DNA of 64,000 bases from Halothermothrix sp. (lineage in GTDB: Bacteria; Bacillota; Halanaerobiia; DY22613). Each line of letters opens with the position of its first letter. Position 1 is the first letter of the stretch. The notes beneath the pieces were generated by a model. That model had not been told where the DNA came from. It worked only from the letters and a program-made list of their open reading frames with translations, and did no database searches. The position numbers and the translations under genes were made by a program. Of this stretch, positions 5,801-30,792 are shown piece after piece. The stretch is from NCBI GenBank assembly GCA_016841825.1, contig JAENYK010000004.1, positions 124,001 through 188,000 on the forward strand, in the 5' to 3' direction.

Positions 5801-8273
5801 GATAAATTGACCAGATCGAAGCTTCTGTAGCTCCACCCAGCGAAACAATTCTCATCCCCGGAATAAACTTGTGCAGCTGCTCGGGCATCTCCAATGGAAT
5901 CCAGTCGCCTGAGAGCATCGCTAAGCGCAGCGGGATTTGGATATCAGCTTTAGTCTGTAAGTGAGTTAATAATATCCGCATTAATGCCGGTACGCTATTC
6001 CAGATAGTCACTTGATGCTTATTTATTACCGTTATCCAATGTGCGGGATCCATATAGTACTGTTCTTCGGGATAGATAATTGCGCCTCCCACAGAAAGAA
6101 GACCAAAAATATCAAATACCGACAGATCAAAATTAAGCTGTGAAATACCAAACACCCGGTCATGCTGATCGAATTCATATCTGTGGATAATATCCTCAAT
6201 TGTATTGCGTGCAGCAGTGTGCGTAATCACAACTCCTTTAGGTTCACCTGTTGAACCAGAAGTATAAATGATGTATGCAGGATTCTCGGGTTCGTTTGCA
6301 GCAGGTTCAAATCTATCGATGTCCTCCTTAATCATATCTACGATAATTACCCTCATCTGCTCTTTATAACTATTATCTATTTTCGAATTTGAGTCGGTCA
6401 AAATAAGAGTACAGTTAACATTTTGTAAAATTTTCCTTCTTCTTAATTCTGCCTGATTAGCATCCACCGGAACATAAACACCGCCCATATATAGAATACC
6501 TAACACTGCTGCCACCTGATAACGTCCTTTTTTCATCACAATAGCTATATTATCCCGCTTTTTGCCACCTGAGCGAACAAGCTCTCCAGCAATTTTTTTT
6601 GCCAGACAGTCCAGTTCCCGATAAGTCAGGACACCTATGCCATCATCTATAGCCAGCTGTTCCGGATACTTCTCCACCTGCTCCAAAAACTTTTCATACA
6701 ACAATCCCTCGGGGAGTTCACGCCGCGTATTGTTGACTTCTTCTCTCTCTGCTTTCTGCCATTGAGGTAGGGGAATATGAAGACTCTGCTTCCAGTTCTC
6801 CTGCGATTCGGCAAGATAGATCAATTGGTTATTGAATTTCTGAAACATATCTGCAATCATTCCATCGGGAAAAACACCTTTTCTGACGTCCCAATTAACC
6901 TGCAGTCCGAAATCACCATCCATAGCCTGACAATCAATAAACACCTGCGGAGTCTGGGTGATCCCAAACTCTGCAAACTGCCCAATTCTTTGTGTACCTG
7001 GGTCAGTTAAACCAATGGCACTGGTATAGACAACAGGCATTAGTGATGCTTCTTTTCCGTATGTTCTTGAAATCTCACGGATCAGTTCCACACCAGAAAA
7101 AAGTCTGTGATCCAAATCCGCAAACAATGTTTGATTAATACTCCTGGCTCTCTGCAGAAACGTGTTTTTAGCGCTGTTTTTTACTTCCAATAGATTAATT
7201 GAAGTGAAATCCCCAACCACATAATTAATTTCTTTAAATAACGGGAGGCGGTTCAGAACAGTCAGATTAAGGCAAAAATCACTGTTCTGACTCCAACGGT
7301 GCACAGCATCAGCATAAGCCGTTAATACAGCTACAGTTGGTGTGATTCCTGAATTTTGCGAATGATTCTTAAATGCTGCCCACTGCTGTGTACCTAAACG
7401 CAGCATATACCTTGCAAACTCAGGTTTTACGCTGACTGACTGTTTGCGCTTTGTTGGAAGTTGAGGTGCTAATGGCAGCGTAGGCAGCCGGTTTATCCAG
7501 TATTGCTTATCTTTTTGATAAGTTGAGCTATTCTTTAAACGTCGCTCCGCCAGTACGCAATCACGGAAAGCAAGATTAATCTCCGGCAGCTTTGCATTCT
7601 TCGAAAAATATAACTTTTCAAATTCTGAGAACAGCAGTAAGATACTTGTCCAATCGGCAATGAGAAATTCCATGGAAAAATGCATAATCTGCCCATTCAC
7701 CTGTTCAGACACAGCAATCCCAAACATCGGCCATTTCCCAGGCGGATAGATGCGATGCCCCATCTCTTCTCTGATATGCTGCAGACTATTGAATTCCGAA
7801 TCAAAGTTGTAATATTCTACATTAAGTTGTGGTACTTCCTGTAAAACCTGCTGAAAACCATTTTCATTGACAATCGCCCTGAGCATATCATGTCTTGTGA
7901 TGAGCGTTTGCCATACCTGTTGGACTCTCTTTCTGTCAAGAGTATCATATCTGATTTCAAGATAAACATGACAAGAAACCCCTCCATATTGAAATGCATC
8001 TTTCCTGCCCAACAGATACGCAGATTGTATATCAGTCAGAGGAAAGGGTTCGTATCTGGACTCTTCAGCAGAATATATTTCTGTTTCATGCTTCGTATTT
8101 GATAGATATTCAATAATCTCAGCTTTATTTTCTTTCAATATTTTTAATCTTTGATCAGATATCGCAGCAGATGGTGCTTTGTATCGCAGCTTCCCATTTT
8201 CACTCCAAAGTGATATATCTTGCTCTGAAAAATAATCTACAATTTCTTTCACTGTATTAAATTTCATTTTCAT
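2862..8273 (-). CDS. NRPS terminal module: TubC-Cy-A(Cys)-MT-PCP-TE (PchF-like)
   Basis: An 1803-residue NRPS. Order: TubC docking domain (~5-60), Cy domain (~75-500), adenylation domain (~535-960), methyltransferase inserted late in the A domain (~1090-1330, motif I EIGAGTGATT), end of A (PLSTNGKIDRK, ~1400), carrier domain (~1450-1520, FGADSL), thioesterase (~1540-1800, GYSFSG nucleophile elbow). The A-domain pocket reads D-L-F-N-L-S-L-I-W-K, a cysteine code. The layout matches PchF of pyochelin synthesis, whose inserted domain N-methylates the thiazolidine nitrogen. The Cy motif is MEFLIADWTS, with Glu in place of the first Asp of DxxxxDxxS. As the only module with a TE it should be the last, releasing the chain by hydrolysis or transfer. 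AAGGAG stands 3 nt from the first ATG and 9 nt from the in-frame ATG at 8267, which may be the true start. Confidence 0.93.
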   Translation of the reverse strand: MKMKFNTVKEIVDYFSEQDISLWSENGKLRYKAPSAAISDQRLKILKENKAEIIEYLSNTKHETEIYSAEESRYEPFPLTDIQSAYLLGRKDAFQYGGVSCHVYLEIRYDTLDRKRVQQVWQTLITRHDMLRAIVNENGFQQVLQEVPQLNVEYYNFDSEFNSLQHIREEMGHRIYPPGKWPMFGIAVSEQVNGQIMHFSMEFLIADWTSILLLFSEFEKLYFSKNAKLPEINLAFRDCVLAERRLKNSSTYQKDKQYWINRLPTLPLAPQLPTKRKQSVSVKPEFARYMLRLGTQQWAAFKNHSQNSGITPTVAVLTAYADAVHRWSQNSDFCLNLTVLNRLPLFKEINYVVGDFTSINLLEVKNSAKNTFLQRARSINQTLFADLDHRLFSGVELIREISRTYGKEASLMPVVYTSAIGLTDPGTQRIGQFAEFGITQTPQVFIDCQAMDGDFGLQVNWDVRKGVFPDGMIADMFQKFNNQLIYLAESQENWKQSLHIPLPQWQKAEREEVNNTRRELPEGLLYEKFLEQVEKYPEQLAIDDGIGVLTYRELDCLAKKIAGELVRSGGKKRDNIAIVMKKGRYQVAAVLGILYMGGVYVPVDANQAELRRRKILQNVNCTLILTDSNSKIDNSYKEQMRVIIVDMIKEDIDRFEPAANEPENPAYIIYTSGSTGEPKGVVITHTAARNTIEDIIHRYEFDQHDRVFGISQLNFDLSVFDIFGLLSVGGAIIYPEEQYYMDPAHWITVINKHQVTIWNSVPALMRILLTHLQTKADIQIPLRLAMLSGDWIPLEMPEQLHKFIPGMRIVSLGGATEASIWSIYHEYQLLNRDWISIPYGKPLANQRFMILDEQLRDCPVWKPGYLYIAGIGLSTGYYGDDSLTEAKFIYHPDSNERIYNTGDMGRYLPGGEIEFLGRTDNQVKIRGNRIELGEIENALNEAASISSAVAIVDPGRNEIIALTEVEQIRDYCNLKADNEFLSLAAEIDERIAKETHEIISADIDKAIHSRNDAALYAIYLALQELEFSNNSTAEICSKYQWLMTYWEKHLRKKGYIQGKEISEFSRDISSGGLQEKWNIAYAAWSNGLGSVEILNYIKLNADNLVELLKGNIDPISLLYPEGDTRFARALYVDNPLSAYLNQYIGMFVEKIAHQRPDRRLKIMEIGAGTGATTEYVINALKGSKYQYYFTDVTKYFFPSAKEKFDGTEMIFKTFDLDIDCEEQGFAPNTFDIIICAYVLNNAVDIRKALSRIESLIAPQGYLLFSEPVNEEPWLLASQALMMNPPEDILRQDSLFCSRETWLEVLDQCEEDSVTKIVPDHSFDLSKLGAALFIKQFKRNRRQIDLDLITSQLNSRLPKYMVPADIYFVDQIPLSTNGKIDRKQVRVWVEKIAKANPNDMLIEMPESKLEEEISKLWMEQLNLDSLGKNQNFYDFGADSLIMAQVATKIRNILNVSTPFDAILRQMLNHPTVQETAEFVALEEQRSESELTITEKLPSRDEFAYVKHYGGDLNKRIRLLIHGVLGSADPYRHLAGELVKQDQGGVIAVEIADTEQYCAIAPNDAIEFLADQYANILLSMNVSRAQIIGYSFSGVIAIEVAKRLLEQGIEVDDVSVIDGGSMPIQLQNELMYEILFIDNIHVSLMNLGISDQKLLERAFSKAVEIQLNVLKLIEIAAEDQDRNVIDALQKMSQAERFNLYAKISEENTGRQISSEVITKLYYVFKQSFQALRFIPDPYFGDIRYFSSIEKEGSFKYFDMLLNDWEDICLGEFAKIEIKGNHYSCLEEKENAVQLAVKLGEVLNNE

Positions 8274-8287
8274 ATACTCCTTTCTAT

Positions 8288-9373
8288 TTAGATATTATCT
8301 GCAAAAGACCTGATCGAATCAAATGAAATATGATGATGCCTAGTTTTATTTTCACTCAGAAATCGGGCATAACCGAAGATCTTCGTCATCTCAGACCATT
8401 GTTTGGAGCATAGTACTTCCTGTTGAGCTTTCCGGTTGGCATTTGCTCCATCAAGAATCAGATCCCGTACACTTAACAGATCTCGTGCTATAGCGATTGG
8501 CCATTCCTTTGTGATAACTGTATCAAAGCTTCTTTCCCGATAGTCACCCAATATTTCGATGGAATTTTCGAGTAAATGTGCAGGAGTAATATTCTGTTCA
8601 CTATTCGGATTATACAGCGAGGTTGGAATATGCATACGCGGCTTCCAGATAACTGGTCCAAAAGTATCCTCCAGAGTCAAGCGTCCACTTTCGTAAACGA
8701 TAACTAGATTGTGCAGCAAATGCATATAGTTGTCCGGATCATGCGGATTAATCTGATTATTATACTCAATTGTGACAGGTATGCCACCGAGTTTTGCAGT
8801 AAGTATGTCAAAGGGACCTATATTCTGATTTAGTGCTTCTATTTCCCAGGTCCGGATGGAAGGAAGTGCACGCATAAGTATATCCATCGCCGGATATGAT
8901 ACCTGTGGACAAAACGATGCATTAATATATACAGGAGAGTCAAGTTTATTAAGTTCACAGGCACAATTAATAAATCGCCGCACTTCCGTCATATTAGGAT
9001 ATAAATCTCCTGTCATAAAGTGTACTTTATTTTTTCGGGCTGCCCTGTAGCAAGATTCCAAATCCCGGGGGTGGATGGGCTGCTCCTGAATAACATTAAT
9101 TTTATGTTCTAACAATTCGAGTGCAATTTCTGTTCCACTTCCACCTATCGCTCCTGAGCGAATAACAACACATGCTAAATTGACGTCAGCAGGCAGCCCG
9201 GATGTAGATGTAAAGAGGGGAATATTGTATTTCTCTGCACACACTTTTGAACGTTCACTTCCATTTGCAAGCAAACCGACAATTTCAAACTCTTCTTTCA
9301 GCAGTTTAAGAGCTGCCAGATAATACTGACCAAATGTTGTTCCGCAAACAATTACTTTGAGTTTTTTATTCAT
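8288..9373 (-). CDS. Thiazolinyl imine reductase (PchG/Irp3 family)
   Basis: A 361-residue NAD(P)-dependent oxidoreductase of the Gfo/Idh/MocA fold. The N-terminal VCGTTFGQYYLAAL motif, the VIQEQPIHP segment (~residue 101) and DLYPNM (~residue 122) match the family that reduces the carrier-bound thiazoline C=N to a thiazolidine in pyochelin (PchG) and yersiniabactin (Irp3/YbtU) synthesis. Length is typical (350-370). Its start overlaps the stop of the upstream gene (TAATG), and the PchF-like NRPS begins 15 bp downstream, so reductase and terminal module are co-expressed. It likely acts on the ring made by the terminal module or its predecessor, before N-methylation. A degenerate paralogue lies at 1-1288. 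Confidence 0.9.
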   Translation of the reverse strand: MNKKLKVIVCGTTFGQYYLAALKLLKEEFEIVGLLANGSERSKVCAEKYNIPLFTSTSGLPADVNLACVVIRSGAIGGSGTEIALELLEHKINVIQEQPIHPRDLESCYRAARKNKVHFMTGDLYPNMTEVRRFINCACELNKLDSPVYINASFCPQVSYPAMDILMRALPSIRTWEIEALNQNIGPFDILTAKLGGIPVTIEYNNQINPHDPDNYMHLLHNLVIVYESGRLTLEDTFGPVIWKPRMHIPTSLYNPNSEQNITPAHLLENSIEILGDYRERSFDTVITKEWPIAIARDLLSVRDLILDGANANRKAQQEVLCSKQWSEMTKIFGYARFLSENKTRHHHISFDSIRSFADNI

Positions 9374-10464
9374 TATATTTCACCTTCTATTTCCTGATAT
9401 AGCTCACATATAGGTCCTTTATGAACCTCCAATCTGCCGGAGGTTTTAATCCTTTGCAGTATTTGCATAAAAGCCCGGGCATTTCCACACTCTCCTAACG
9501 GATAGACACCTGGTGGAATTCTTTGCTCCTTGACAGCAATTACGGTGACTGCAGCCGTTAAACCTGTTAATTCAGCCGGGCTGTCATAAAGAAAGCTTAG
9601 TGTTCTACTCAGTTCCCTTCTTTTTATTTCTCCATCAATTTGAATTACAAACCCGGCATATTCTTTATCTCCGGCACAATCTGCTTTTGTTGCATCATGA
9701 AGGCTTTGGATAGTCTGCGCCGGATTGTTTGGATAATGATATTTTGCCGTTTCCAATACCTTCAATGTACATTCACCGTCAAGGGTCATATACCATTCAC
9801 CGTTTTTAAGATCTAATTCCTTAGCCACATATAGTGATTCATTATCAAAATAGGGGAATGACTTTAACTCACGATTAAAAAGTCTAACTCTGCCAGGATT
9901 TCCGTCAGTCACATAGGGAGCCACTTGACCGTTTTTCCAGATCATCATTGATTTATTTGTTTCATGGAATAATCCATCCAGATAATCTCTGGCTGCTGTT
10001 TTTGTAAATCTACCAAGAGCTGCATAGTAAGACTTCAGATTTTTCACCTTAGCGAAGTCATTGGCAAACCAACGAGGCAGTATTCCTGACAATCCCGGCG
10101 TAGACCCTGCTCCGTAAATAACAGAACAATTATCGGGAATATCACTGGCTATTTTCGACCGGTCTATCATCCCAACATCTATATAATCAGACCCGTTATT
10201 GGCGACAACCCAGGTTAGCTCTTCCGAATCAGTGGGTACTTTTGCACAGTTGATAACGATCTTACAGTCGGTAATGAATGCTTTAATACTGGAAATATCA
10301 TCAATATCCACCGCCATCACATCTCTGATATTCAGCTGCCCCTGCGAATTATCGGATCTTGAGGTATTTCTACTACCTACACGTAAAGGCTCAGTCTGTT
10401 CCCGCTCTAAAATACTGACGACATGCCTACCCACATTCCCACTACCACCGATAATTCCGATCAT
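9373..10464 (-). CDS. Saccharopine dehydrogenase-like NAD(P)-binding protein
   Basis: A 363-residue protein with an N-terminal Rossmann motif (MIGIIGGSGNVGRHVV) and the layout of saccharopine dehydrogenase-family proteins: nucleotide-binding half, then a VIYGAGSTPGLSGILP segment near residue 135 and a substrate-binding half. It is translationally coupled on both sides (ATGA overlap with the upstream NRPS, TAATG overlap with the reductase), so it belongs to the pathway. Family members oxidise or reduce C-N bonds of opine-like or imine substrates; a role in ring reduction or oxidation, or in modifying the chain end, is inference. It could also be a redox-inactive relative. I cannot name the substrate. 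Confidence 0.75.
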   Translation of the reverse strand: MIGIIGGSGNVGRHVVSILEREQTEPLRVGSRNTSRSDNSQGQLNIRDVMAVDIDDISSIKAFITDCKIVINCAKVPTDSEELTWVVANNGSDYIDVGMIDRSKIASDIPDNCSVIYGAGSTPGLSGILPRWFANDFAKVKNLKSYYAALGRFTKTAARDYLDGLFHETNKSMMIWKNGQVAPYVTDGNPGRVRLFNRELKSFPYFDNESLYVAKELDLKNGEWYMTLDGECTLKVLETAKYHYPNNPAQTIQSLHDATKADCAGDKEYAGFVIQIDGEIKRRELSRTLSFLYDSPAELTGLTAAVTVIAVKEQRIPPGVYPLGECGNARAFMQILQRIKTSGRLEVHKGPICELYQEIEGEI

Positions 10465-13400
10465 AATTCTCCCTCCACCATGCTCTTCAGCTCATCTATT
10501 TTCTTCTGGACAAGAAACGCTACTTCAGATAACCCTGGTCGATCAAACAGTTCACGAAGCGAATAATCTACACCCATTCTTTGTTTGAGAATAGTAATAA
10601 ATCTGGTCGCTGACAGGCTGTCACCACCTATTTCAAAAAAGCTCTGCACTCCTGTTATCTGGTCACAGCCGATAAGTGTTTTCCAGATGTGGGCAATTTC
10701 CCCTTCCAACCCGACGTATTCTATTTTTCCCTTTGCTTGTCCACCAGGGCCAGTAATTAATCTTACCATTTTCTTGCGATCAACCTTCCCATTTTTATTA
10801 ATTGGAAAACTCAGAAAAAAGCAAATAGCGTCTGGAAGCATATACTCAGCCAGCCCCAATTGCAAATATTCCTTAAGCACAGCAGGCGAATTAAACTGAG
10901 CTTTTTCCAGTGCTGCATCAATTAGCATTGCAGAAGATCTGTACCGGGAAATGATTTTAAGCTTAGCAAACTGTGATTCATCAAAAACATCTTGCCATTC
11001 TTTTTTAGTAAGCAAAGGTTTATCTTCCGTCTCCCTGGTATTTGAAAAATTAATAAAACCATTTTCGATTGCGCCTGATACTACAACTGCTATGGGATCT
11101 AATTTTTCGTATTCGATTGCGAATAAATGTCCCTCTTCTTTCAACAATGTGTACGCTATGCCAATGCCTCGTCGGGCATCAATATACTGATGCAATAAAT
11201 TTATTGCAATGACATAGTCATAAGCATGTAGATGTTCCCGGGGAATGAACTCCTCTGTTAGTATTTCAAACTTAATATTTTCATTATTTTTGAAACGTGT
11301 TCTGGCCTTATTAAGCATGATGGGAGATGAATCAAACAAGGTCATTTGAATATAAGGATTTTCTACTTCCTGATAAAGTGCATACGCACCAAGACCGGTT
11401 CTCGCCCCCAGCATCGCTATCTTTAAAGAATCTTTTCCCCTTTCCTCTAGCATTCCAGTAATAATTCTTATACAGTGCTTAGTGTCATCTCCCTCCATAG
11501 ATAGTTCTTCCGGTGACAGTCCTTGCACATCCAAAATTTGAACTGCCGACTCATCACCTTGAAGAATCCTCTTAAATAAATCCTTTGCTCCCGCCAGCTT
11601 TAAAGCCAATTCATCTCGCTCTATACTGTTCCTGGACAATACAGAATCGTACCTTTCTCCAGGTCTGATTTTTGAATGATCTATATTGATGACTCTGCGC
11701 CTTTGTAACCAATGACACCAGTAATCAAAAAGTGTTTTTGTCCGTTCACAATACGCTGTATCATACGATTTTAAAGCTATATCGCTTAATTGGCATAGCT
11801 CCAGCAAAAAAGATTCAACCAATTCTGTCCGCACAGATAACATATCATCAGACCAATCACTTACATCATCTTCTGTAACTTCACATTGGAAAACGTTATT
11901 TCTGTCTTGACGGGGAATGACAGCTAAAGCAAGTTTTTTTGACCCTTTGGCCTCAATTGCTACAGCAATCGCATCCTCAACGTCAGGATGCTGTTTAGCT
12001 ATATTTTCTATTTCGCCCAGTTCAATCCTGAAACCATTTATTTTCACCTGATTATCAATTCTACCGAGGAACTCGATAGTGCCATCCGACCAATATCTTG
12101 CTAAATCACCAGTACGGTACCAGGAAATTCCGTCAATATTTTGAAAGCTGTCCTCTGTTAAATCTTCTCGATTAACATAGCCTTTTGCAACACCTTTACC
12201 GCCAATCCATAATTCTCCCGCCACATAGTCGGGACAATCAAACCCCCGGCTGTCCAAAATCCTCATTTTTTGATTGCTCAGCGGGACTCCATATGGTATC
12301 GATTTCCAGGACGTAGGAATATTCTGAACTTCAAAATAGTTAGACCAGATCGAAGCTTCTGTAGCACCTCCCAACGCAACAAATCTACAATGCTCTGTTG
12401 TCTCTTTTACTCTGTGATACAATTCTAATTTTATCCAATCACCCGATAGCATTACTAAACGCAAGGGTAATTTTTTTTCTGTCAATTCCCATATTGTCAA
12501 CAGCATCTCAAAAAACATTGGTACACTGTTCCAAATAGTTATATCATTCTTTTTAATTGCTTCTTTCCATACAGCAGGCTCCTTTTTACTCTTTTCTGAT
12601 AATACCACTATTTTGCCACCTGCTGCTAAAAGTCCAAATATATCATAAACAGAGAGATCAAAGTCAAGCTCGGATATCGCCAGCAGACAATCTTTTTCAT
12701 CGACTCCAAATCTTTTGTTAATATCGGCGATGGTATTGTAGGCCGACTCATGAGAAATCTCCACACCTTTGGGGTCGCCCGTTGATCCAGAGGTAAAGAT
12801 AATGTATGCTGTATCCCTGGGATCAGAGAATATTGGCTGTATTCCATCAGAAGCCGTTGGTTGATCATCAATACAGATCCGATTAGTCTGACTAAAATAT
12901 TGATACGTCTCTACATGCAATCTATCCGTGAGTATATATCGTATTTGAGCGGTTTCAAGAATTTTTTTAACTCTATCAAAGGGCTGTCCAATCCCAATTG
13001 GAACATAAACACCTCCAACGGAAAGGATTCCCAGTACAGCTACAATCTGCTGTGCTCCTTTCGGTAGTACCACTGCAACAGAAGTTCCTTTTTGCACACC
13101 CTGTTTTTGTAATAAAGCTGAAACCCTCAATGCACGCTCTCTCAATTGACCATACGTAATGATTTTCTGTTCATCTATTTCCGTTTCTGCAAGCGCAGGA
13201 GTATCAGGGTATCTATCAGCATTCCGAAAGAACTCTGCATGTAGGCAGTTGGAAGGTATATCCTTATCTGTACTATTTACCTGCTCTCTAACCCTTAACT
13301 GTTCTTCGGGAATTATACATGATATCTTATTCTCCCAGGAATTGTCCGCTAAATAGTCTGCCAACTGATGCATTGCTGCTTCCATGGCATCCAGTATCTG

Positions 13401-13694
13401 ATTGTCAGCAGTTGTGTTTTCAATAAGTAACCGAAAACGTCGATCCGGTGAATCTACAGAAAAAGTAAAGGCATCATCTTCAAATCTGCTTTGTGAACCA
13501 TAGGTCTGCTCTATCTGTCTGCAAAATTCCCGCCATGATTGGATTTTTTCTTCTTTTTCATCATACGGATACCAGGTTTTGTACAACTGCAGTCCGATAC
13601 ATTTAATAATTGTCCGGGGATTCAATCCATATCCATCCGATTGCTTAGCAAGCCTTTCGGAAATACTCTCTTCTAATTCAACTATTCTTATCAT
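10461..13694 (-). CDS. Free-standing NRPS A(Cys)-MT-like-PCP protein without condensation domain
   Basis: The start is set at the ATG at 13694, preceded by AAAGGAG at good distance; an upstream in-frame ATG (13751) inside the thioesterase gene lacks such a site. This gives 1077 residues. The N-terminal ~150 residues are not a Cy domain and resemble nothing I recognise with certainty. An adenylation domain follows (~170-590) with the pocket D-L-Y-N-L-S-L-I-W-K (cysteine), then a methyltransferase-like insertion (~670-920) whose motif I is degenerate (MLGARTGLGA), the A-domain end (PINKNGKVDRK) and a carrier domain (IGGDSLSA, ~1010-1060). The degenerate insertion recalls the PchE/HMWP2 epimerase-type variants. 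It probably pairs with the free Cy protein at 1370-2869 to make a split module. Stop overlaps the next gene as ATGA. Confidence 0.88.
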   Translation of the reverse strand: MIRIVELEESISERLAKQSDGYGLNPRTIIKCIGLQLYKTWYPYDEKEEKIQSWREFCRQIEQTYGSQSRFEDDAFTFSVDSPDRRFRLLIENTTADNQILDAMEAAMHQLADYLADNSWENKISCIIPEEQLRVREQVNSTDKDIPSNCLHAEFFRNADRYPDTPALAETEIDEQKIITYGQLRERALRVSALLQKQGVQKGTSVAVVLPKGAQQIVAVLGILSVGGVYVPIGIGQPFDRVKKILETAQIRYILTDRLHVETYQYFSQTNRICIDDQPTASDGIQPIFSDPRDTAYIIFTSGSTGDPKGVEISHESAYNTIADINKRFGVDEKDCLLAISELDFDLSVYDIFGLLAAGGKIVVLSEKSKKEPAVWKEAIKKNDITIWNSVPMFFEMLLTIWELTEKKLPLRLVMLSGDWIKLELYHRVKETTEHCRFVALGGATEASIWSNYFEVQNIPTSWKSIPYGVPLSNQKMRILDSRGFDCPDYVAGELWIGGKGVAKGYVNREDLTEDSFQNIDGISWYRTGDLARYWSDGTIEFLGRIDNQVKINGFRIELGEIENIAKQHPDVEDAIAVAIEAKGSKKLALAVIPRQDRNNVFQCEVTEDDVSDWSDDMLSVRTELVESFLLELCQLSDIALKSYDTAYCERTKTLFDYWCHWLQRRRVINIDHSKIRPGERYDSVLSRNSIERDELALKLAGAKDLFKRILQGDESAVQILDVQGLSPEELSMEGDDTKHCIRIITGMLEERGKDSLKIAMLGARTGLGAYALYQEVENPYIQMTLFDSSPIMLNKARTRFKNNENIKFEILTEEFIPREHLHAYDYVIAINLLHQYIDARRGIGIAYTLLKEEGHLFAIEYEKLDPIAVVVSGAIENGFINFSNTRETEDKPLLTKKEWQDVFDESQFAKLKIISRYRSSAMLIDAALEKAQFNSPAVLKEYLQLGLAEYMLPDAICFFLSFPINKNGKVDRKKMVRLITGPGGQAKGKIEYVGLEGEIAHIWKTLIGCDQITGVQSFFEIGGDSLSATRFITILKQRMGVDYSLRELFDRPGLSEVAFLVQKKIDELKSMVEGEL

Positions 13695-13728
13695 CCACTC
13701 ACTCCTTTCGTGGTTATTGGACTCTGGC

Positions 13729-14481
13729 TCATTCACGCAAAACAGCTTCAATCACTCTATCTCTGTACTCTTCCTCCAGAACAAAGAAATGTTCACCTGC
13801 AAACTCCTCTATAACAAAAGAGTTGGTCGTCATATTCGCCCATTTTGCCATGATCTCAGCAGTAGCCCCATAATCCTGTTTGGCTGCGTGGGCAATGATG
13901 GGAATGTCGATCTGTTCATCCCGATAAACAAAGCTTTCATTCAATTTATAATCTTTACGAAGCTCAGCAATAATGACTTCCAAAAATTCTCTGTTAGCAA
14001 ATACTTCCGGGGGAGTCCCTTTATGCATTTTTAATTCCCTGACTAATGCATCATCAGACATGTAGGTCTTAAACCCAATTAAGTCTTCTTCATTGGGTGC
14101 CTGCCTTCCCGATACAATCAACTTCAACGGCTTTTGCTGATACTTTTCAGCCAGACGATGAGCGGTATAAAAAGCTGCTGCTGCCCCCATGCTATGTCCG
14201 TATAAAACAAACCTTCCATCTCCGACTTTTTTCAATATAACCTCACATAAAGGATCAAACAGCAGGTTAAAATCATCAACGAACTCTTCTTTTCTTCTAA
14301 CACCCTTCCCTGGTAATTCAATACAGACAAATTTAACCGGAGCACTTTCTATTGTCCATTTTCTGTATGTAGCAGCAATACCACCGGCATGGTGAAAGCA
14401 AAACACAGTATCCAAATAATGATGCTCAGATTGTTGGCTTTCAAAGGGAAACCATTTTTTTAAATTTAAACTATCCATCAT
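13729..14481 (-). CDS. Type II thioesterase (editing)
   Basis: A 250-residue alpha/beta hydrolase of the external thioesterase family (YbtT, GrsT, SrfAD-like). Visible motifs: FCFHHAGGIA near the N terminus, the nucleophile elbow GHSMGAA (~residue 90), and a C-terminal GEHFFV carrying the catalytic histidine. Such enzymes remove stalled or wrong acyl groups from carrier domains of PKS/NRPS lines. It sits between the sulfur carrier gene and the free A-MT-PCP gene in the operon; a GGAGG lies about 14 nt before the first of two ATG codons (14481, 14478). Confidence 0.92.
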   Translation of the reverse strand: MMDSLNLKKWFPFESQQSEHHYLDTVFCFHHAGGIAATYRKWTIESAPVKFVCIELPGKGVRRKEEFVDDFNLLFDPLCEVILKKVGDGRFVLYGHSMGAAAAFYTAHRLAEKYQQKPLKLIVSGRQAPNEEDLIGFKTYMSDDALVRELKMHKGTPPEVFANREFLEVIIAELRKDYKLNESFVYRDEQIDIPIIAHAAKQDYGATAEIMAKWANMTTNSFVIEEFAGEHFFVLEEEYRDRVIEAVLRE

Positions 14482-14491
14482 AGGTAATCTC

Positions 14492-14767
14492 TTATCCTCC
14501 TGCTATTGTGGGAATAATATATACAATCTGACTTTCCACCAACTCTGTATCCAGACCATTCAGATGATTAATATCTTCATCTCCAAGATAGATCGTTACC
14601 AGAGGTTTTATTGAAAAGTCCTCATTGCAGATCGTCCGAATCAGATCAGGATATGAATTACTGAGTTTTTGCAGTAACTCAAGTACCGTATTAGCTTCAG
14701 TTAAAATAATACCTTTTCCATTTGTGTTCTTTCGCAGCGGTGAGGCAATACTAACATTTATGCTCAT
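14492..14767 (-). CDS. MoaD/ThiS-like sulfur carrier protein
   Basis: A 91-residue protein of the ubiquitin-like beta-grasp type ending in Gly-Gly (IIPTIAGG). That diglycine end is adenylated and converted to a thiocarboxylate in MoaD, ThiS and pathway-specific carriers such as those used for thioquinolobactin and pyridine dithiocarboxylate. GGAAAGGA precedes the ATG. It is separated by only 3 bp from the upstream gene and lies two genes away from a ThiF-like E1 enzyme (15684-16418), so the pair probably delivers sulfur to the product of this operon. The substrate is unknown; a product thiocarboxylate is one possibility. Confidence 0.88.
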   Translation of the reverse strand: MSINVSIASPLRKNTNGKGIILTEANTVLELLQKLSNSYPDLIRTICNEDFSIKPLVTIYLGDEDINHLNGLDTELVESQIVYIIPTIAGG

Positions 14768-14770
14768 GAT

Positions 14771-15664
14771 TTATTCCTTTCCGCCAATTGGCTTATATTC
14801 TTCAATAATGATACTGCGTAATAGTTTAGGTGCTTTTGAATATAGTTCATGCTTTATATAATCATGCCCATTATAATTTAGATAAGAGCTGATTACTTCA
14901 ATAGTATCATCATAGAAAAACGCTTTCTTGATTGAATACCACATTTTCCAATTACGATAATCCGTCTTTTTCTGAAGATATAATGGAATTTCCAGATCAT
15001 TATCCGGCGCCTGTCTGATTAGAGCATCTCTCCCCATACTCAGTACCGGAGCAGTATAGTTCATAAATGCTCCCATAAATCCATATTCACAGTAAGGATG
15101 AAGGATCCGATGGGTTACAGAAACCATTCCCCCCCATTCACCGGCAGTATTTAGTCTGTTTAAGAGTAAACCTGGGTTTTCTACTAACATCTCTTCTGTG
15201 GGGACCATCAATGATGCCAGTTCTGAATTAATTTGCGGCGATTCTTCAAAAGCTCCTAACGTCCAGTCTCTATCGTCCGAATGAACACATTCAACACCAT
15301 TCCAGATGCATTGCGCAACAGGTGCAAATAGCTCTGCCGATTTATACACACTTGTTTGAACTTGCAGCATGGCATTATCATATACCGTATTAATTTTTGT
15401 CTGAAAAAGAAGACGTCTTTCAGTCAAAAAATCAATCTGTTGATCAAAAATTCGTACATTAATTAGCGGAACTTCGAAAGTCACTTTTTTGTCTTTTACG
15501 CGGTTAAACATATCCCAATAAAAGTGAGCAAACGCTTTAATCTGCATATTGCTTGCATGTAAGAGCAGCGGACCGGGCAAAAGTGAATCTTCACAAAATT
15601 CCCAGGCTGATAGCTCAATAATATCTGAATAGACCTTTTCTTGTTGTCCAATCGAATTTTGCAC
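14771..15664 (-). CDS. Unrecognised operon protein, possibly hotdog-fold
   Basis: A 297-residue soluble protein starting at GTG, with GGAGG 9 nt upstream. I do not recognise a family with confidence. The segment around residues 70-140 (RLLFQTKINTVYDNAMLQVQ, then a variable strand and APVAQCIWNGV) has the strand pattern of a hotdog thioesterase or dehydratase, and the second half may repeat it. No signal peptide or membrane span. Placed between the ThiF-like E1 enzyme and the sulfur carrier, with gaps of 19 and 3 bp, it probably acts with them, for example as the acyl-processing partner of sulfur transfer; that is inference. Confidence 0.6.
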   Translation of the reverse strand: MQNSIGQQEKVYSDIIELSAWEFCEDSLLPGPLLLHASNMQIKAFAHFYWDMFNRVKDKKVTFEVPLINVRIFDQQIDFLTERRLLFQTKINTVYDNAMLQVQTSVYKSAELFAPVAQCIWNGVECVHSDDRDWTLGAFEESPQINSELASLMVPTEEMLVENPGLLLNRLNTAGEWGGMVSVTHRILHPYCEYGFMGAFMNYTAPVLSMGRDALIRQAPDNDLEIPLYLQKKTDYRNWKMWYSIKKAFFYDDTIEVISSYLNYNGHDYIKHELYSKAPKLLRSIIIEEYKPIGGKE

Positions 15665-15683
15665 TTATCTAGACCTCCTGTCA

Positions 15684-16418
15684 TTATTTTTTGTGTAGAT
15701 ATCCGCAAATAGGACAATCCTTTCGTGCATAAATTTTAAATTTATTAAAGGAATTATTGCTGCCATCCCAGACCAACAGCGTGTTTTTCATTAAGTCACC
15801 TGTCTGGGTCAGGAATTTAATTACTTCCAACGCCTGCAACGAACCTATCACTCCCACCGTCGCTCCAACAATCGGAAATTGTTCTTTAGGGGGTGCAGCA
15901 GGAAAAACACACTTCAAACATGGTGTCTCAGGAACATGAAACAAAGAAACCCGTCCTTCCATTCCCCAGACGCTTCCATGGACAAGGGGGATATCTCTGC
16001 GTATTGCCTCCTCCATAAGCAAATATCTTGCTGCAAAATTATCAAGGCAATCCACAATTATCTTTGCCTCAGCCGTTAGCTGATGAACATTATTCCTGGT
16101 TATTTCTTCCTGAATAATCTTAACTTGTATTTCAGGGTTGATATAATGGAGAGTTATTTTTGCGGATACAGCTTTATCAATATGAAGACGTGAATCTCCA
16201 TGCAAAATTTGTCTGTTTAAATTGCTAATATCCACTACATCCATATCACATACCACGATGTTACCTACCCCTGCTGCAGCTAAATATAGTAGGACAGGAG
16301 AACCAAGCCCCCCGGCACCTGCTACAAAAACTGTTGCCATACTGAGTTTTTCCTGACCGTCATCCGCCCACCCATCAATGGTCATTTGACGGACATACCT
16401 TTGTAATCGCTCTGACAA
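15684..16418 (-). CDS. ThiF/MoeB-type E1-like sulfur carrier adenylyltransferase
   Basis: A 244-residue member of the ThiF/MoeB/HesA family, starting at TTG after GAGGTGATAAC. Visible: the nucleotide-binding GAGGLGSPVLLYLAAAG (~residue 33), the N-x-x-x-Q-region DISNLNRQIL, a DCLDNFAAR segment typical of E1 enzymes, and two zinc-binding cysteine pairs (CLKC ~173, CPIC near the C terminus). It adenylates the C-terminal glycine of a ubiquitin-like sulfur carrier, here most likely the 91-residue protein at 14492-14767. Its presence inside an NRPS operon, away from thiamine or molybdopterin genes, points to a dedicated sulfur step in the pathway. A sulfur donor (cysteine desulfurase or rhodanese) is not seen in this window. 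Confidence 0.93.
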   Translation of the reverse strand: MSERLQRYVRQMTIDGWADDGQEKLSMATVFVAGAGGLGSPVLLYLAAAGVGNIVVCDMDVVDISNLNRQILHGDSRLHIDKAVSAKITLHYINPEIQVKIIQEEITRNNVHQLTAEAKIIVDCLDNFAARYLLMEEAIRRDIPLVHGSVWGMEGRVSLFHVPETPCLKCVFPAAPPKEQFPIVGATVGVIGSLQALEVIKFLTQTGDLMKNTLLVWDGSNNSFNKFKIYARKDCPICGYLHKK

Positions 16419-16485: not shown

Positions 16486-19400
16486 TCAGTAAACAAACTC
16501 CTCGTGAAGTATTGAAGTTAGGTATTTATCCAACTTTTGAATCGTTGTATGTGCTAATAAAGTTGTTATATCTACCTCTATGCCGAATTTACGCTCAATT
16601 TTATTCTGTAAGCTCATAATATGCAGAGAATTTGCACCCAGATTAAAAAAGTCATCCGCAATACCTATATCCGGGATAGCTAATATCTCCCGGAGTAGCT
16701 CTGCAAGCTCCTGCTGTGAATCCGTTAAATCACCTTCTGGCAGCCCCAAGATCGGTTCTGCTTTCATCTCTATTCTAGCTAATTTTTTCCGATCTATCTT
16801 GCCGTTGGCTGTTAATGGCATTTGGTCAATAAAACGAATATGTGCAGGAATCATATACTTCGGCAATTTACTACTAAGCATCTCCACTATCTGTGTACTG
16901 TCGATTACTGTTTCTTTATCCCGAACAATAAAGGCGGCAAGACTCCTTTTTTCACCTTCACCCAGTGCCATAACAACTGATTGAACGACCCCCGGATAAG
17001 CATTAATTACGGCAGAAATTTCACCCAACTCGACTCTGTAGCCTCGTATTTTGATTTGACCATCTTCACGTCCTAAAATTTCTACCACTCCATCCGCCAG
17101 ATATTTTCCCAGATCTCCAGTACGATAAAATCTTTCTCCTGTCTGCGAATCCACAAAAAAACTCTTTTGAGTTTTTTCTTTATCTTTCCAGTAACCCTGA
17201 GCCAATCCTGTACCACCAATACAAATCTGTCCGATGACATGATCCGGCACATCCTCCAATTGGTCATTGAGGATTCTAATTGTTTGATTGATTAATGGAT
17301 ACCCATATGGAACGCTGCTCCATTCTTCCTTGACAGAAGTAATTGGAAAATAGATAGACCAGATTGAGGCTTCCGTAGCACCACCCAGACTGATAATCTG
17401 AATTTCAGGTGAACACAGTTTCCTGATTGCATCAGCTAACCCCAGGGGTATCCAATCTCCGCTGAGCATAATCACCCGCAAGCTTTGCGGCAGCATTTTA
17501 GCACGCTCTGTCAATACCTGCATCAGTGCGGGTACTGAATTCCAGATGGTAACATTATATTTTGCCAATAGATCCAACCAATGTGAAGGTTCTTTCTCCT
17601 TATCCGGATCAAGCATTACAACAGCACCTCCTGCAATAAGCGGCCCAAAGATATCATAGATAGACAGGTCAAAGGTTAAGTTTGAGATGGCTATAGTTCG
17701 GTCTGTCTGCTTAACCGCAAACTTGTGATTGATATCCAAAAGTGTATTGACAACACTCTTATGGTTAATCATTACTCCTTTGGGTTCACCCGTGGACCCC
17801 GACGTATAAATAACATAAGCTAAATCATCAATTCTTTGACGAGATTCAAAGACCAATTCTGGATGATCAACATCCCGCTCCTGCACTGACATGACTCTGA
17901 TTCCTTTCCCAAAAGACTCTTTTCCAGCAAGCTCAGGTTGGGTTAAAACAATCTGAACATCACCATTACTAAGAATATAGTCCATTCTTGCCTCAGGAAG
18001 ATTAGGGTCAATTGGCAGATAGGCTGCTCCGGAAAACAGGATAGCCAATACGCCAACCACCTGTTGCCATCCCCTGTTCATAACTATTGCAATTAACGTA
18101 TTAGGTTCTGCTCCTTCCAGAACTAATTCATTTGCCAACGCTGAGACATGATCGTACAACTGCCTGTAAGTTAACGATTTCCTGTCTGAATAAACAGCTA
18201 TATTGTCTGGAGTTAACATAACCTGTTTGCTGACCAGTTCATGCAGCATCATAGTTGGAACAGGATTACTCTCTTCCAGTGACATTCTAATCTTTTTCTG
18301 CTCTATCGGCAGCGGTATCTGGATTTTAGAATTCCACATTCCCGGGGATACAGCCAATTTCTCTAACAATCCACAGTAAGTTCCAAAAATAGTATCCATT
18401 AAACCTTCCGGAAATAAATCTCGAACATAATCCCAATTTAGCACAAGACACCCATTATTCTCATACACCTGATGATCAAGCCACACCTGCGGTGTCTGAG
18501 TTATATTATAAATAAGCTCTCCCATCCGGGTTATTCCTGAACCATCCTGAACATTTGCTCCCAATCCCAATGCACTGGTAAAAACAACTGGCATAACTGC
18601 ACTACCGGGAATAACACCATTTATTCGAGCATATTCGCGGATAACAGAAACTCCCCCAAAAGTAGCATGACTCAAATCCGACCACAATTGATCCTGCACC
18701 TGTTGTACTTGATATTGAAAAGTATTATCTGTACGAATATCAACCTCCAGTAATGTCAAAGAAGTGAAGTCTCCAATTATCTCAAATACTTCCGGATGCA
18801 TCTCAAGACGGTTAAACAGTGTCAGATTAATCGTAAAATGTCTGGATTTGCTCCATTTACCCAAAACCGTTGAAAAGGTAGTCAATAATAACGCTGCGGG
18901 TGTGATCGACAATGATTTTGCCTGTGCTTTCAAGCTTGCCCAATGCTCCCGTGAGATGACTGTATCGAGCCGCTCAAACCGATTGGACATATTATTTTTA
19001 GATCTCTTCAGAATGGGTAATTCAGGTGCCCCCGGAAGTGTTTCCACTCTTTTCAACCAGTATTCCCGATCTATTTTATATTGCTGGCTGTCTTCCAGGC
19101 TCTTATTAGCAATAACATAATCTCTAAACAAAAGATTAAGTGGTTTCATTTCTATTCCCGGATTGTCATATAACCTGGCCCATTCGTCAAATAAAAACAG
19201 CATAGAACTCCCATCGAAGATTAAATTATCAAAGCTGACCATTAGCCGAACTAGGTCATCACCATAAATGACTATTCTGATTTGAAACGGCGGCCACTCA
19301 TCCAGTGATAAGACCTGATGTGACATGGTTTCACGTATTTCCATAAGTTTGTTCCGGGCAGTAAGCGGATCTTCATCTCTTAAATCAATGATTAGTATCT

Positions 19401-22400
19401 TGTATTCTTCAACTTCTTCCCTGACGACTTGTTTTTGACCATTGATAACGACTCTCATCATATCATGCCTGATTATTAACCGATTCCATGCTTCTTCCAG
19501 CCTTCTTATTTCCAGACCTTTTCGCTCAATCTCAAAATAACTATGGGTCGAAACACTTCCCAGTTCAAAAGCTCCTGATCTGCCAAGCCAATATGCTTGC
19601 TGCACTTCTGTCAGCGAAAATGGCTGATATCGGTTTGCCTGGTCTGGATGAATTATCGGAAGTTTTGGTGCTGCAGAGTGTACAGAACCATCAATATACT
19701 CTGCCAATTGCGCCACTGTTGGTTGATTAAAAATATCTCGAAGCAATATTTCAACGCCCAAGCTATTCCTTATTTTTGAAATCATTGTAATTCCCAGTAA
19801 AGAATCCCCTCCCAGTTCGAAAAAGTTATCCAGAATACTAATTGGGCTGCATTTAAGAAGTTCTCCCCAGATGTTAACCAACTCAATTTCGGAGTGAGTT
19901 TTAGGTGGAACTACACTCCTGTTTTCACTTTTTTTATCAACCCCATTACTCTGTAGTAAATTTCGATCAATTTTACCATTCGGAGTAAGCGGGAAATCTC
20001 CCAGTGCAAACACTCTTTTTGGTATCATATAATCAGGCAAATGTTTTTTCGCAAACTGAATCAGCTCTGTCTCATCAGGCTGAACCAGTATGCTCTTTGC
20101 TACGATAGAGGTTGCTCCCAGTCTGCTTTCTATACTCTGATCAGAGATAAGTGAAAACGGCAAATAGCAAGTTTTCTGCAATAGCTTATTCCAGTCCTCT
20201 GCTGAAAGCAAAGCTCCATTTTTATTATTGCGCTGGTCTGTCAATCGACTGAAGCCTTCCCCGGCAACTGCTGCTGTGATTAACTGCAGACTGGTATTCT
20301 CTGTGTTCTCCATCAGAACCATTAAGCCATCCTTTTTAAGAAAACAATGAATCTGCATTAATGCATGCCGAAGATCGGAGCAGCGATGCAGCGAATTAGC
20401 CAATATTATCAGATCATATTGCATACTTAAATCCTTTTGCGGATTTAAACTGCTGTCTAAATCAATTAATTCATAAGTAACCTGATTATATCCGTTCAAT
20501 GTTAGGCGTGCCTGATCCAGAAAATACAATGACGAATCCGCAGCAGTGTACTCAACAGACACAGACGCCTCTTGAAGATGATGTAGTATTTCACTGGCAA
20601 ATACACCTGTTCTGGCACCAATTTCCAGAATTCGTGGTTTATCAACTTTTGAAACGAGTTCCTGAACACACCTGATGGTAACATCATAGATTAACCTTGT
20701 TCCAGGTAGTTGTGTTACTAAAGTTTCAGGTGTATCATTGGACTCATCATTCCCATAGAAGATTTCAAAAGGCTCTTTTTCTCCGGACAGAATAGCAGGA
20801 ATATTTTCAGACAACTGCTTAATTTTTTCCTTTAATTCAATAAATGAATCGTTTACCGTGATCTTCTCTGGTAAAATATCAGAATTTAACAGGTATTCCT
20901 GCCGCTTATTTTGGACCAGAATTCCCTTCTGGGTAAGGGTTTGCAGCCACAGCTGAATAAGCTGTTCATAACGGGGATCAATACCTGCTTGCTGCATAAT
21001 ATTCATAATTTGCTGAGATTCACCTGGCGTTTGATAGAAGCCATATTTCCGCAAAATATTCATCATTATCCTTAACGCAAAAGCATTCATTTCAGCATTA
21101 CAATCTTCAATAAGTGCCATGGGAAAATCACTAATTTGACTGTTAACTATATCTGTCAGTGAACTGATAAGTGCTGAAGTGACCTCTGTTTCCACCTGCG
21201 GCAGATTTTTCTTTTCTGGAATTATATACCCCACAATCTGCTTCTCTCCAGCACCCTTCGGGATAACTGCCACAGCATTCATAACTTCAGGATGCCTGCA
21301 GAGAACAGATTCAATCTCACCCAGTTCAATGCGATGCCCATGTATCTTGACCTGTTGATCTTTTCTTCCAAGAAATTCGATAAGCCCGTCGGTTAAATAT
21401 CTTCCATAATCACCTGTTCGGTAAAGCCTTTCCCCTGTTCTGGGATGAATGATAAAGCTTGTCGCACTTTTCTCTACATCGTTTAAATATCCCAGAGCAA
21501 CACCAGATCCCCCGATATATAGCTCTCCAGCGACCATATCTGGACAATCTTCCATATTTTCATTTAATACGTAAAATTTCTGGTTTCGCATGGGGAGACC
21601 ATAGGGAATACTATGCCAACTGTCCGCTACATACTTAATTGGATATAAAATCGACCAGATGGAGGCTTCTGTAGCACCACCCAGGCTAATAATCTCCGCA
21701 TGTGGAAGGTCTATAAGCAAGTCTTTAGCAAGGCCAAGGGGTATCCAATCACCACTCATCAGAACTAGACGAAGAGATGAGGGGAGCTTCTCTCCTTTTC
21801 CATGTAGATAAACCACCAGCATTTCCATTAAGGCAGGAACAGTATTCCATAGCGAGATGCTATGTTCTTTTATCAGCCTGTTCCATTCAATCGGATCTTT
21901 TAGGGTCTCCTCTGTCGGAAAAATGACTGTTCCTCCACCGGCCAACATACCAAATATATCGTACACAGATAAATCGAAATTAAGCTGAGAGAGTGCCAGG
22001 ATTTTATCTCCTGTTCTAACTCCAAACCGCTCGTTTATGTCAAGGATGGTATTTACCGCTCCCTGATGTGAGATCATTACTCCTTTGGGTGTCCCGGTCG
22101 AACCGGATGTATAAATAACATAGGCCAGTTCATCAGAGCTTTGCTGCACAGGAGAATGGTCACTGCTTTTTCCTTCGCTGCAGCTTTCAATCAACAACAT
22201 TTTTACGTCATCAGGTATTAATGAAACATTATTCGAATCACAGATGACACATTTAGATCCACTCGCCCTGATTATCCCTTTAACTCTGCTCTTCGGGAAA
22301 GCAACATCTAATGGCAGATAGACTGCCCCTGAGATCAAAACCCCCAGGACAGCGACCACCTGTTCGGGTCCCTTGGGAAGAAGAACGCTAATGATATCTC

Positions 22401-25400
22401 CTCTGTTTATTCCCATCTGAAGAAGCTGTTCCTTGACTCCTATAGCCAAACTTGCCAGCTGTTTATACGAGATTGTCCTCTCCTCCTGAATCAAGGCAAG
22501 ACCATCGGGGTTTTTCGCCACCTTCTGCAGAAACAATTCATGGATCAATTTATCTGAGACAGGATGTGCTGTCTGATTTAACTTTTGATGTTTTAATATT
22601 TGCCGTTCAGGAAGTCCTATCGGTTCAGCAGCCTCCCACTTATTGGTGTTCTCTGCCAACTCCAGCAGCAAATTATGATACGCAGAAAACATATCACTCA
22701 ATACTGTTTGATCAAACAAACCCTGAACTGTGTCCCAATTATAAGTAAGCATCCCGTTACTTTCAAATATTTGAAAGTCCAGCCACACCTGAGGTGTTTG
22801 TGATATACTGTAAACAATATCTGCATCCACTCCTGCCGGGAGTTCGATAGTTGACCCTGAATTACCTGATGGTGAACTATATGGAATTACGCTAGTAAAG
22901 ACTACGGGGATAACTTCACTATTTTTCCCTTCTTTTTTCGCCTTCATCCGGAGAACTTCCAGACCTGAAACAGAGCTATTCTCCATATTGTCCCAGAATT
23001 CATTTTGAATATTTTGTGCATTTTCCAGAAAACTGGCTGAACCGTCAATATCAATACTTAACACAATCAATGAAGTAAAATCGCCAACAATATCATTGAC
23101 TTGCGGGTGAAATGGTTGACGATTAAATAAAGTCATCATGATCGAGAAGCTATTCCGATTACACCATTTACGCAGTGTGTATGCAAAGACAGCCAGCAAT
23201 ATTCCGGAAGGAGTTAGACCACTGTTGGCGGCTATTTTTTTTATCTTTCTCCATTTTTCTTCAGCTATTTTTGCTTTGTTCCTGATAAATACAGGGTTTT
23301 GAATCTTTTCAGGAGAGACTGCTAAAGGAAGCTGGGGTGCTGCTGGCATTCTGCCTATTTTCTCATTCCAATATTCAAGGGCTTTCTGATATTCAGCAGT
23401 CTGCTGACGCTGAGTATCCTGCATAACATAGTCCCGGAAGGTATAGGAAAGCTCTGGCAGCTCTTTTTCACCTCCGGAATAATATGCATACAGATCTCTA
23501 AGTAAAATATTAAAACTATATCCATCGGCGATTAACATATCCAGACTAATATGCAGCTGTGTTATACACTCAGTTAGCTGAAATGCCCGAATAGCAAATA
23601 GCGGTCCTGTTTCAGAATTATGCACAATATGTGATAATTCATCTCTACTTGCCAACAGACACTGCTTAAGCGTAAATTCATCCATTTGGCGGCAATCTTT
23701 AAATCCGATCTGATGGGCATGGGCATGAGGATTAATCTTTTGTCGTCCTTCAGGCAAAACGGATGCACGGAGCATCCCATGTCGTGCAATTAGCTGATTA
23801 AGCGCAGCGTTAAGCATAGCAATATCAATATTGCCAACGTTTACTTCCAGGTATAGATGACATGATACATTTCCCAGAACCAATTGATTCTTGCGTCCAA
23901 TCCAGTACGCATGCTGCACCTCTGTTAAAGGGAAATCATCAGATTCAGTATTCACTCCCGATTCAGTTAATTCTCTATCGACAACAACAGCTATTTCCTG
24001 GTTATATCGTGTATTGCTAATATAATCTGCCAGCTTCCTAATAGTGCGGCAGTTCAAAAACTCCTTAAAAGGTATATCAATTGCGAATTCTTTTTTTAAT
24101 GAATTACGTAAATTCAGGATTACCAGAGAGTCCAATCCTAAATCTAACAGATTTTCGTCAATATCAATTTGCTGATAGTCTTCAATCCAGGCCGCCGTAC
24201 CTACATGCTTTTGAATTATAGCTACGATGTCCTGCTGGGTATTATAAGATGTTTCTGCCAACACAGGTTGTTGTTCAGTCATGTGCTTATCATAATTATG
24301 TGAACTCGCCACAGTTTTGCTATTGCTAAGATTATCACTGCTTTTTACAACCAAGTTGGCTAAATTTCTGATGGTTCGACATTCTAAAAATCCTTTATAC
24401 GGTATATCACTACCAAACTCTTTTTTTAATATGTTTCTAAGATTGAGGATAACTAATGAATCCAGACCTAAGTCCAGTAGATTTTCATCAATGTCGATAC
24501 GTTCAAATTCCGTAATCCAGATCATTTCACCCACATATTTCTGGATTTTTGAAATAATATCTGTAACTGAACCACAATCAACCACATGGCTCGCTACCTC
24601 TGATTGGTTCTTCACCCACTTTTGATCTTCACTACCGACTATGCCACTGTCTCCCCCGTAATACGACTTTAGGCGTTCATCGACCATCCTGACAAATTGC
24701 CGGGAATTGTAGGATGCATATCCCACATGAGTTACCCGCTCAAGGATAAATTTTCTTAAAGCCTGTAAGGCTTGCTCTGATTCAACCAGACCAATTCCCC
24801 TGGACAAAAGTCGAGTACGTACCTGTTCTCCCATCTGTTCTGCCATACCCTTTGCTCTCCACAGCCCCCAGCTCACAGCAACAGTAGGATATCCTGACTG
24901 CGACCTCCACTGCGCAAAGGCGTCAGATACTGCATTTGCGGCAGCATAATTGGATTGTCCAGCAGTACCGATCATTGAGGCAACTGAAGAGAACAGGACA
25001 AAATAATCCAGTGTCTGCCCTGCAAATATTTTATGTAAGTTCCATGCCCCGCAAATCTTCGGAGCATAAACGGCAAGATAATTTTCCCAGGTCTGCTTAT
25101 ATACCGGACCATCTCGCAAAACCCCCGCCAGATGAAAAATCCCTTTGACCGGAGCCAGTTGACTATCTATTTTTTTAAAGACTGTCCTCAGTTCTTGCTC
25201 ATCAGTAATGTCACAAGAATACAATTCAACGTCTGTTCCTGAAGGCAAATTAATTTGAGAGAAATTAGCCTTTGAAGCTGAACGACTGATAACCGCTATT
25301 TTTTTAGCACCCTGTTCTATCAGCCAGGATGTCAGGATACGCCCCAAACCTCCAGTTCCGCCAGTGATGACATAACAACTATCCTCACGGAAATTCAGTT

Positions 25401-29895: not shown

Positions 29896-29939
29896 TTTTT
29901 GACCCCCTCGCATAATTTAAAATCAATGTAAGTTGTCTC

Positions 29940-29957
29940 AGGCTAACATAAACCTAA
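29940..29957. promoter_or_regulatory. DtxR-box-like site in the NRPS leader
   Basis: On the minus strand this reads TTAGGTTTATGTTAGCCT, which shares the TTAGGTT...TTAGCCT halves with DtxR/IdeR-type operators. It lies about 45 bp before the giant PKS-NRPS start, inside the predicted leader. By eye only; the regulator is not in the window. Confidence 0.35.
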
Positions 29958-30018
29958 ACCAATAACACTTTACTTAAATTAAAAAGATTTATCTTTTGAA
30001 ACATTATTTATTCTCTTA

Positions 30019-30038: not shown

Positions 30039-30100
30039 AATCGTTAAAAAAAATAGCACCTCTAGTAACCCGTAAAATACCTATTCCCAACTTTGATAAC

Positions 30101-30152: not shown

Positions 30153-30159
30153 GTTGATT

Positions 30160-30790: not shown

Positions 30791-30792
30791 AA

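Follow-up and report, generated by a model that had tools for sequence, protein, structure and literature searches.

The question raised by this locus is what a ThiF-like E1 and a MoaD-like sulfur carrier, separated by a third protein (hereafter, X), are doing inside an NRPS operon, and where their sulfur would go. The window, i.e., the whole stretch of 64,000 nucleotides that was analyzed, contains the following cluster:

16486-29913, - strand: PKS-NRPS of 4475 aa, KS-AT-DH-KR-ACP-ACP-Cy-A(MT)-PCP-Cy-A-PCP, with an N-terminal carrier-like region without Ser (Pfam, motifs)
15684-16418, - strand: ThiF/MoeB-like E1, 244 aa, TTG start (Pfam ThiF)
14771-15664, - strand: protein X, 297 aa, GTG start (ORFan)
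14492-14767, - strand: MoaD/CysO-like sulfur carrier, 91 aa, ATG start (Pfam ThiS)
13729-14481, - strand: type II thioesterase, 250 aa, GHSMG (Pfam Thioesterase, 1.3e-35)
10461-13751, - strand: NRPS A(MT)-PCP, Cys code (Pfam, motifs; PDB relatives include PchE, the dihydroaeruginoic acid synthetase)
9373-10464, - strand: saccharopine-dehydrogenase-like NAD(P) protein (Pfam; homologue in the cluster of genome G365)
8288-9373, - strand: thiazolinyl imine reductase (TIGR01761, 252.3 bits against a cut-off of 188.8)
2862-8273, - strand: NRPS TubC_N-Cy-A(MT)-PCP-TE, Cys code (Pfam, motifs)
1370-2869, - strand: stand-alone TubC_N-Cy, 499 aa (Pfam, motifs)
1-1288, - strand: second thiazolinyl imine reductase fused to a methyltransferase, 736 aa, continuing left past the window to C43:123078

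A Sulfur-Carrier Trio Within a Thiazoline NRPS Cluster

The original prediction placed the trio between the giant synthase and the type II thioesterase, on a single strand and with short gaps, and this is borne out, the coordinates 14492-16418 being exact. The 4475-aa PKS-NRPS (stop at 16486) and the thioesterase (start at 14481) flank it on the - strand, with gaps of 67 nt from the synthase to ThiF, 19 nt from ThiF to X, 3 nt from X to the carrier and 10 nt from the carrier to the thioesterase. Codon bias is positive solely in the own frame of ThiF, X and the carrier, and the three look like genuine genes. The true start of the synthase is probably its second Met, at 29895.

Judged by its domains, the cluster is a thiazoline NRPS of the pyochelin/yersiniabactin type, having Cy domains, A domains for Cys and a pair of thiazolinyl imine reductases. 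Each of the four A domains has DL(Y/F)N(L/M)SLIW, a code for cysteine, and three of the four Cy domains have the Cy motif DxxxxDxxS. The predicted assembly logic is that of pyochelin and yersiniabactin, except that no aryl starter is visible: neither salicylate synthase nor aryl carrier loading was found among the Pfam-scanned cluster proteins, the flanking ORFs being read by eye.

The E1 and Its Carrier

The E1 matches Pfam ThiF at 9.4e-70 (234.9 bits against a cut-off of 28.1), the domain spanning residues 8-236. R10, R69, K82 and D126 are all present, together with the zinc Cys pairs C167/C170 and C235/C238; these roles (adenylation, zinc) are the ones assigned in MoeB and ThiF, and the residues are consistent with adenylation. 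When aligned with E. coli ThiF, the window ThiF has no Cys in the place of the acyl-disulfide Cys184, and Pfam shows no rhodanese domain fused to it, so that the sulfur may come as sulfide or via a separate persulfide protein. The carrier matches Pfam ThiS at 1e-7 (32.8 bits against a cut-off of 22.5), and its C-terminus, ...IIPTIAGG, leaves the GG exposed, a GG-type end being required of any protein able to be thiocarboxylated. Its best PDB relatives are 4n6e (annotated as a ThiS/MoaD family protein) and 3dwg (annotated as 9.5 kDa culture filtrate antigen cfp10A), both CysO-like proteins.

SAMP1 and archaeal MoaD models also match the carrier, below their cut-offs, and X could be a ligase-like adaptor, as would fit a ubiquitin-like tag (SAMP or CBASS style) placed on the synthase instead of a sulfur donor. 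We consider this very unlikely, since the operon has no JAB or E2-like gene and the relatives found are in sulfur operons.

The closest ThiF found, at 51% identity, belongs to Omnitrophota (L045), in an operon of ThiF, PLP synthase (PALP), MoaD and NIL; a JAB gene lies a few kb off. The ThiF tree has a biased sampling, as the scan supplying some of its sequences was seeded with the window and NRPS-embedded ThiFs; in it, the window ThiF, the Omnitrophota ThiF and four NRPS-embedded ThiFs are set apart from 38 others by a 100/99 split, and without the long-branched embedded domains the window and Omnitrophota ThiFs remain paired (100/98). This operon, of the CysO-type cysteine/homocysteine kind, further shares with the window a carrier 34% identical and the order ThiF-acceptor enzyme-MoaD, whereas its acceptor enzyme is a PLP synthase with no NRPS, and the window has X and an NRPS. 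The kinship suggests another use for the carrier thiocarboxylate, namely feeding not the product but a precursor, either cysteine or an unusual thio-amino acid, to the four Cys modules, in the way that CysO works with a PLP cysteine synthase; the carrier resembles CysO, the closest ThiF accompanies a PLP synthase, and the line appears to use several Cys. We nonetheless hold this to be unlikely: Pfam finds no PLP synthase (PALP) in the cluster, X has no similarity to PLP enzymes, the JAB/Mec+ protein that CysO needs for cysteine release is missing from the cluster, and it would be unusual for ordinary cysteine to have a supply of its own.

Genome-Wide Search for a Cofactor Role

The genome searched comprises 5.08 Mb and is 99.7% complete. 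The window carrier is its only PF02597 (ThiS/MoaD) match, which would by itself suit a pair serving thiamine or molybdopterin synthesis and merely parked in the NRPS operon, the very reading that would have refuted the original prediction. Nevertheless, the genome has no PF02391 (MoaE) match at E<=1, its ThiG matches are all below the cut-off, and HcyBio is absent, and the pair sits tightly within the operon. A thiamine/Moco role was consequently rejected on the MoaE and ThiG searches, and a homocysteine role via HcyBio on the absence of HcyBio; with no second ThiS/MoaD either, no cofactor job was found for the pair, and we regard such a job as extremely improbable. The other three ThiF domains of the genome are placed elsewhere: two of them are embedded in NRPS adenylation domains, and the third belongs to a CBASS E1-E2 protein (Cap2). 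Together with the sole carrier gene and the missing cofactor partners, this gives good support to the predicted dedication of the sulfur-carrier system to the NRPS.

The CBASS operon that carries the fourth ThiF domain of the genome (C8, L007:6676-10459) encodes a CD-NTase, the E1-E2 protein (Cap2), a JAB protein (Cap3) and a probable membrane effector.

Protein X

An AGGAGG ribosome-binding site lies about 8 nt before the GTG of X, and its codon usage fits that of the neighboring NRPS genes in its own frame alone; X is therefore not a chance ORF. The middle protein had been described as unknown, and so it proves: Pfam, PHROGs and PADLOC give no match for X, and NCBIfam and PDB none that is credible; it has no recognized fold or catalytic motif, and its single-sequence AlphaFold model (pLDDT 31) is unusable. 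No copy of it was found in three partly overlapping sets (151 relatives, 398 phylum genomes and 396 genomes of a Paenibacillus-like family), nor in the named-genome collection by exact 8-residue patterns, a scan that catches close relatives alone; searches of plasmids and viral contigs were also empty. X need not be unique for being missing from these sets. A match in one genome (G219) hits a solute-binding protein and was judged to be due to chance. Kinship to LnmK and the hot-dog fold, suggested by reading the sequence, is no more than an idea, as a TIGR04099 search of the genome was empty and Pfam and NCBIfam give no such match. Likewise, X has no similarity to the genes beside MoaD in the Paenibacillus-like genome G421 (348 aa) or in Paraburkholderia (266 aa).

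X does fill the slot of the acceptor enzyme, taken by the PLP synthase in the Omnitrophota operon, and it is mainly for this reason that we consider it a candidate sulfur-transfer or docking enzyme.

Comparison With Known Thiocarboxylate Systems

The original prediction likened the pair to those of thioquinolobactin and pyridine dithiocarboxylate (PDTC), a class (4a) made up of MoaD, E1-rhodanese, JAB, CaiB transferase and AMP ligase (PMC1779556). The likeness holds for the core, i.e., an E1 and a MoaD-like carrier (ThiS, AGG tail) in a metallophore-type cluster, and fails for the rest: the E1 of those systems carries a rhodanese whereas that of the window does not, and in place of JAB, CaiB CoA-transferase and AMP-ligase the window has the orphan X and a large PKS-NRPS. 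No JAB/JAMM protease was found among the Pfam-scanned cluster genes, nor did these scans give a CaiB CoA-transferase or stand-alone AMP-acid ligase, AMP-binding appearing solely as NRPS A domains. By its gene content, the window pair is thus not a member of this class.

In thioplatensimycin biosynthesis, an acyl-CoA synthetase and a type III CoA-transferase work with carrier-derived sulfur, the proposed donor being the carrier thiocarboxylate, backed by gene inactivation; capped carriers require a JAMM protease (PMC6006322). The window carrier, with its GG exposed, would need none. In this cassette (PtmA3/PtmU4), as proposed for the window, an activated acyl group would receive its sulfur from a protein thiocarboxylate. 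On the other hand, the carrier genes of thioplatensimycin lie outside the cluster, its acceptor acyl-CoA being made by PtmA3 and handled by PtmU4, whereas the window has its carrier genes within the cluster and, by Pfam, no two-domain type III CoA-transferase beside an acyl-CoA synthetase.

The photoxenobactin/piscibactin line, pxb, is alike in being a PKS-NRPS with Cy, Cys units, thiazolinyl reductase and TEII, and it makes photoxenobactins with thiocarboxylate termini, whose proposed source is C-S cleavage of an extra Cys; unlike the window, it has no ThiF/MoaD reported in the accessible part of that study (PMC9396620). Photoxenobactins show that such a line can reach thiocarboxylates with no carrier gene reported (PMC9396620). 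A thiocarboxylate is thus a chemically natural end for lines of this kind, and finding one in the product would not alone prove carrier involvement.

Other combinations of sulfur carriers with peptide machineries were also found. In the 6.6-Mb Paenibacillus-like genome G421 (C1:5957184-5963744, L084/L085), a second NRPS and sulfur-carrier combination includes a putative JAMM-like protein (no Pfam match), an FGE-like enzyme, a MoaD ending in FAGG, a 348-aa unknown protein, a PCP, ThiF, an A domain and an MFS gene. As in the window, dedicated ThiF and MoaD stand beside NRPS domains; unlike it, there are FGE-like and putative JAMM-like genes and a minimal A-PCP, and its ThiF is not near that of the window in the tree. 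Furthermore, a Paraburkholderia megapolitana plasmid (NZ_CP041744.1, L086:4970-9080) carries YcaO, TfuA, a 266-aa unknown protein, MoaD and a ThiF with a C-terminal rhodanese-like part, which places a dedicated sulfur carrier in what is probably a thioamide RiPP cluster.

With ThiF/MoaD occurring beside YcaO/TfuA on that plasmid, the sulfur might be placed within the chain (as a thioamide, dithiocarboxylate or C-S bond) instead of at a C-terminal thiocarboxylic acid, and the window cluster, with its PKS module, free Cy and separate A-MT-PCP protein, is compatible with more than one order of assembly. Still, we give this placement a low likelihood, the cluster lacking YcaO and TfuA and a thioester being the simplest acceptor for a protein thiocarboxylate.

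The trio was also sought in homologous NRPS loci, as had been suggested. A genome of the same phylum (G365:C60:9886-23653, L041/L042) has a yersiniabactin-like cluster, beside which stand four ABC-transporter genes and whose thiazolinyl reductase is fused to two methyltransferase regions; it shares with the window cluster the dehydrogenase-like protein and the reductase-methyltransferase. None of ThiF, MoaD and X is present on this 25-kb contig, so that the trio is not standard in such loci.

Proposed Role of the Trio

Very probably, the trio adds extra sulfur to the peptide product and does not serve vitamin or cofactor synthesis. More specifically, we give even odds (a probability of about 0.5) to its being a cluster-dedicated sulfur donor, in which the carrier thiocarboxylate (carrier-COSH), brought by X, sulfurates the thiazoline chain while this is bound as a thioester, release being the likeliest step for it. 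ThiF would adenylate the MoaD-like carrier at its C-terminal Gly; AMP would then be displaced by sulfide, or by the persulfide of a housekeeping donor, to leave carrier-COSH; and X would take the charged carrier to the assembly line, where the thioester-bound chain would receive the sulfur, presumably at release, to give a thiocarboxylic acid or derivative. A thiocarboxylic acid product is plausible, and its acting as a soft-metal ligand is speculation.

What is observed is the genes and their order, the adenylation-consistent residues, the free GG tail, a four-cysteine thiazoline line and no cofactor pathways using the pair; the thiocarboxylate chemistry, the part of X and the delivery point are what we infer. 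In favor of the donor are the short gaps on one strand inside the operon, the single MoaD in a genome without MoaE, HcyBio or ThiG over cut-off, the intact adenylation and zinc residues of ThiF, the nearness of the carrier to CysO-type proteins, and the presence of the closest ThiF (51%) in a ThiF-PALP-MoaD-NIL operon with JAB nearby. Dedicated ThiF/MoaD pairs at other peptide machineries (A-PCP in G421, YcaO/TfuA on the Paraburkholderia plasmid) argue likewise, as do the carrier thiocarboxylate proposed for thioplatensimycin (PMC6006322) and the thiocarboxylate termini of a sister pathway (PMC9396620). Counting against it, the cluster is without a CaiB-type transferase or stand-alone acyl ligase, both used in known thioacid pathways; X has no recognized fold or catalytic motif; the G365 locus is without the trio; and, as marks of a metallophore, no transporter was seen in the cluster and the Fur-box scan was no better than chance.

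There are few enzymatic ways of making thiocarboxylates and related sulfur groups, and the one studied best takes a small acyl-CoA as its substrate. With a carrier system built into a multimodular thiazoline NRPS, the reach of sulfur-carrier chemistry would widen to the products of assembly lines, and an orphan protein in the place of the acceptor enzyme would point to a new transfer enzyme.

ThiF Domains Inside NRPS Adenylation Domains

The two NRPS-embedded ThiF domains of the same genome are located at C21:130255-131127 (L001:13256-14128) and C18:69978-70847 (L002:9979-10848), and the same architecture occurs in a distant phylum, on an Aminicenantes MAG contig (L048:9521-14608 and 18900-20498). 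Among the matches listed, ThiF in a giant ORF was found in this genome only, of 398 phylum genomes. The embedded ThiFs keep their adenylation and zinc residues intact, and the tree puts them together with that of the window. With the motifs read by eye from the alignment, the insertion lies between a1 and a2 in three of the four (both own-genome copies and one from Aminicenantes) and between a2 and a3 in the other Aminicenantes copy. A-domains are usually interrupted at a8-a9 and sometimes at a2-a3, the insertions listed being methylation, Ox and KR, not ThiF (review, PMC11355689). In a ten-sequence AlphaFold model of the A domain with ThiF, the two parts are each kept with useful confidence (mean pLDDT 76); a Foldseek search with this model yields NRPS adenylation structures.

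These insertions suggest that the link between E1 and NRPS is older and wider than the window operon. A bolder and rather doubtful extension is that one carrier serves three assembly lines, with the free ThiF acting for the thiazoline cluster and the two embedded ThiFs charging or using the sole MoaD on-line, and X being the first of a new sulfur-transfer family; if true, the NRPS would contain a sulfur-activation domain of its own, of the ubiquitin-E1 type.

Region Upstream of the First NRPS Gene

About 1 kb (29914-30967) separates the first NRPS gene from a strong promoter-like site on the - strand, TTGACA-17-TATACT (30967-30939). This region, which gives no Rfam match, contains a terminator-like hairpin of 18 pairs (30830-30791) and is a possible regulated leader. 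On the opposite strand within it, a 72-aa NifU C-terminal-like protein was recognized by eye (30572-30790, + strand).
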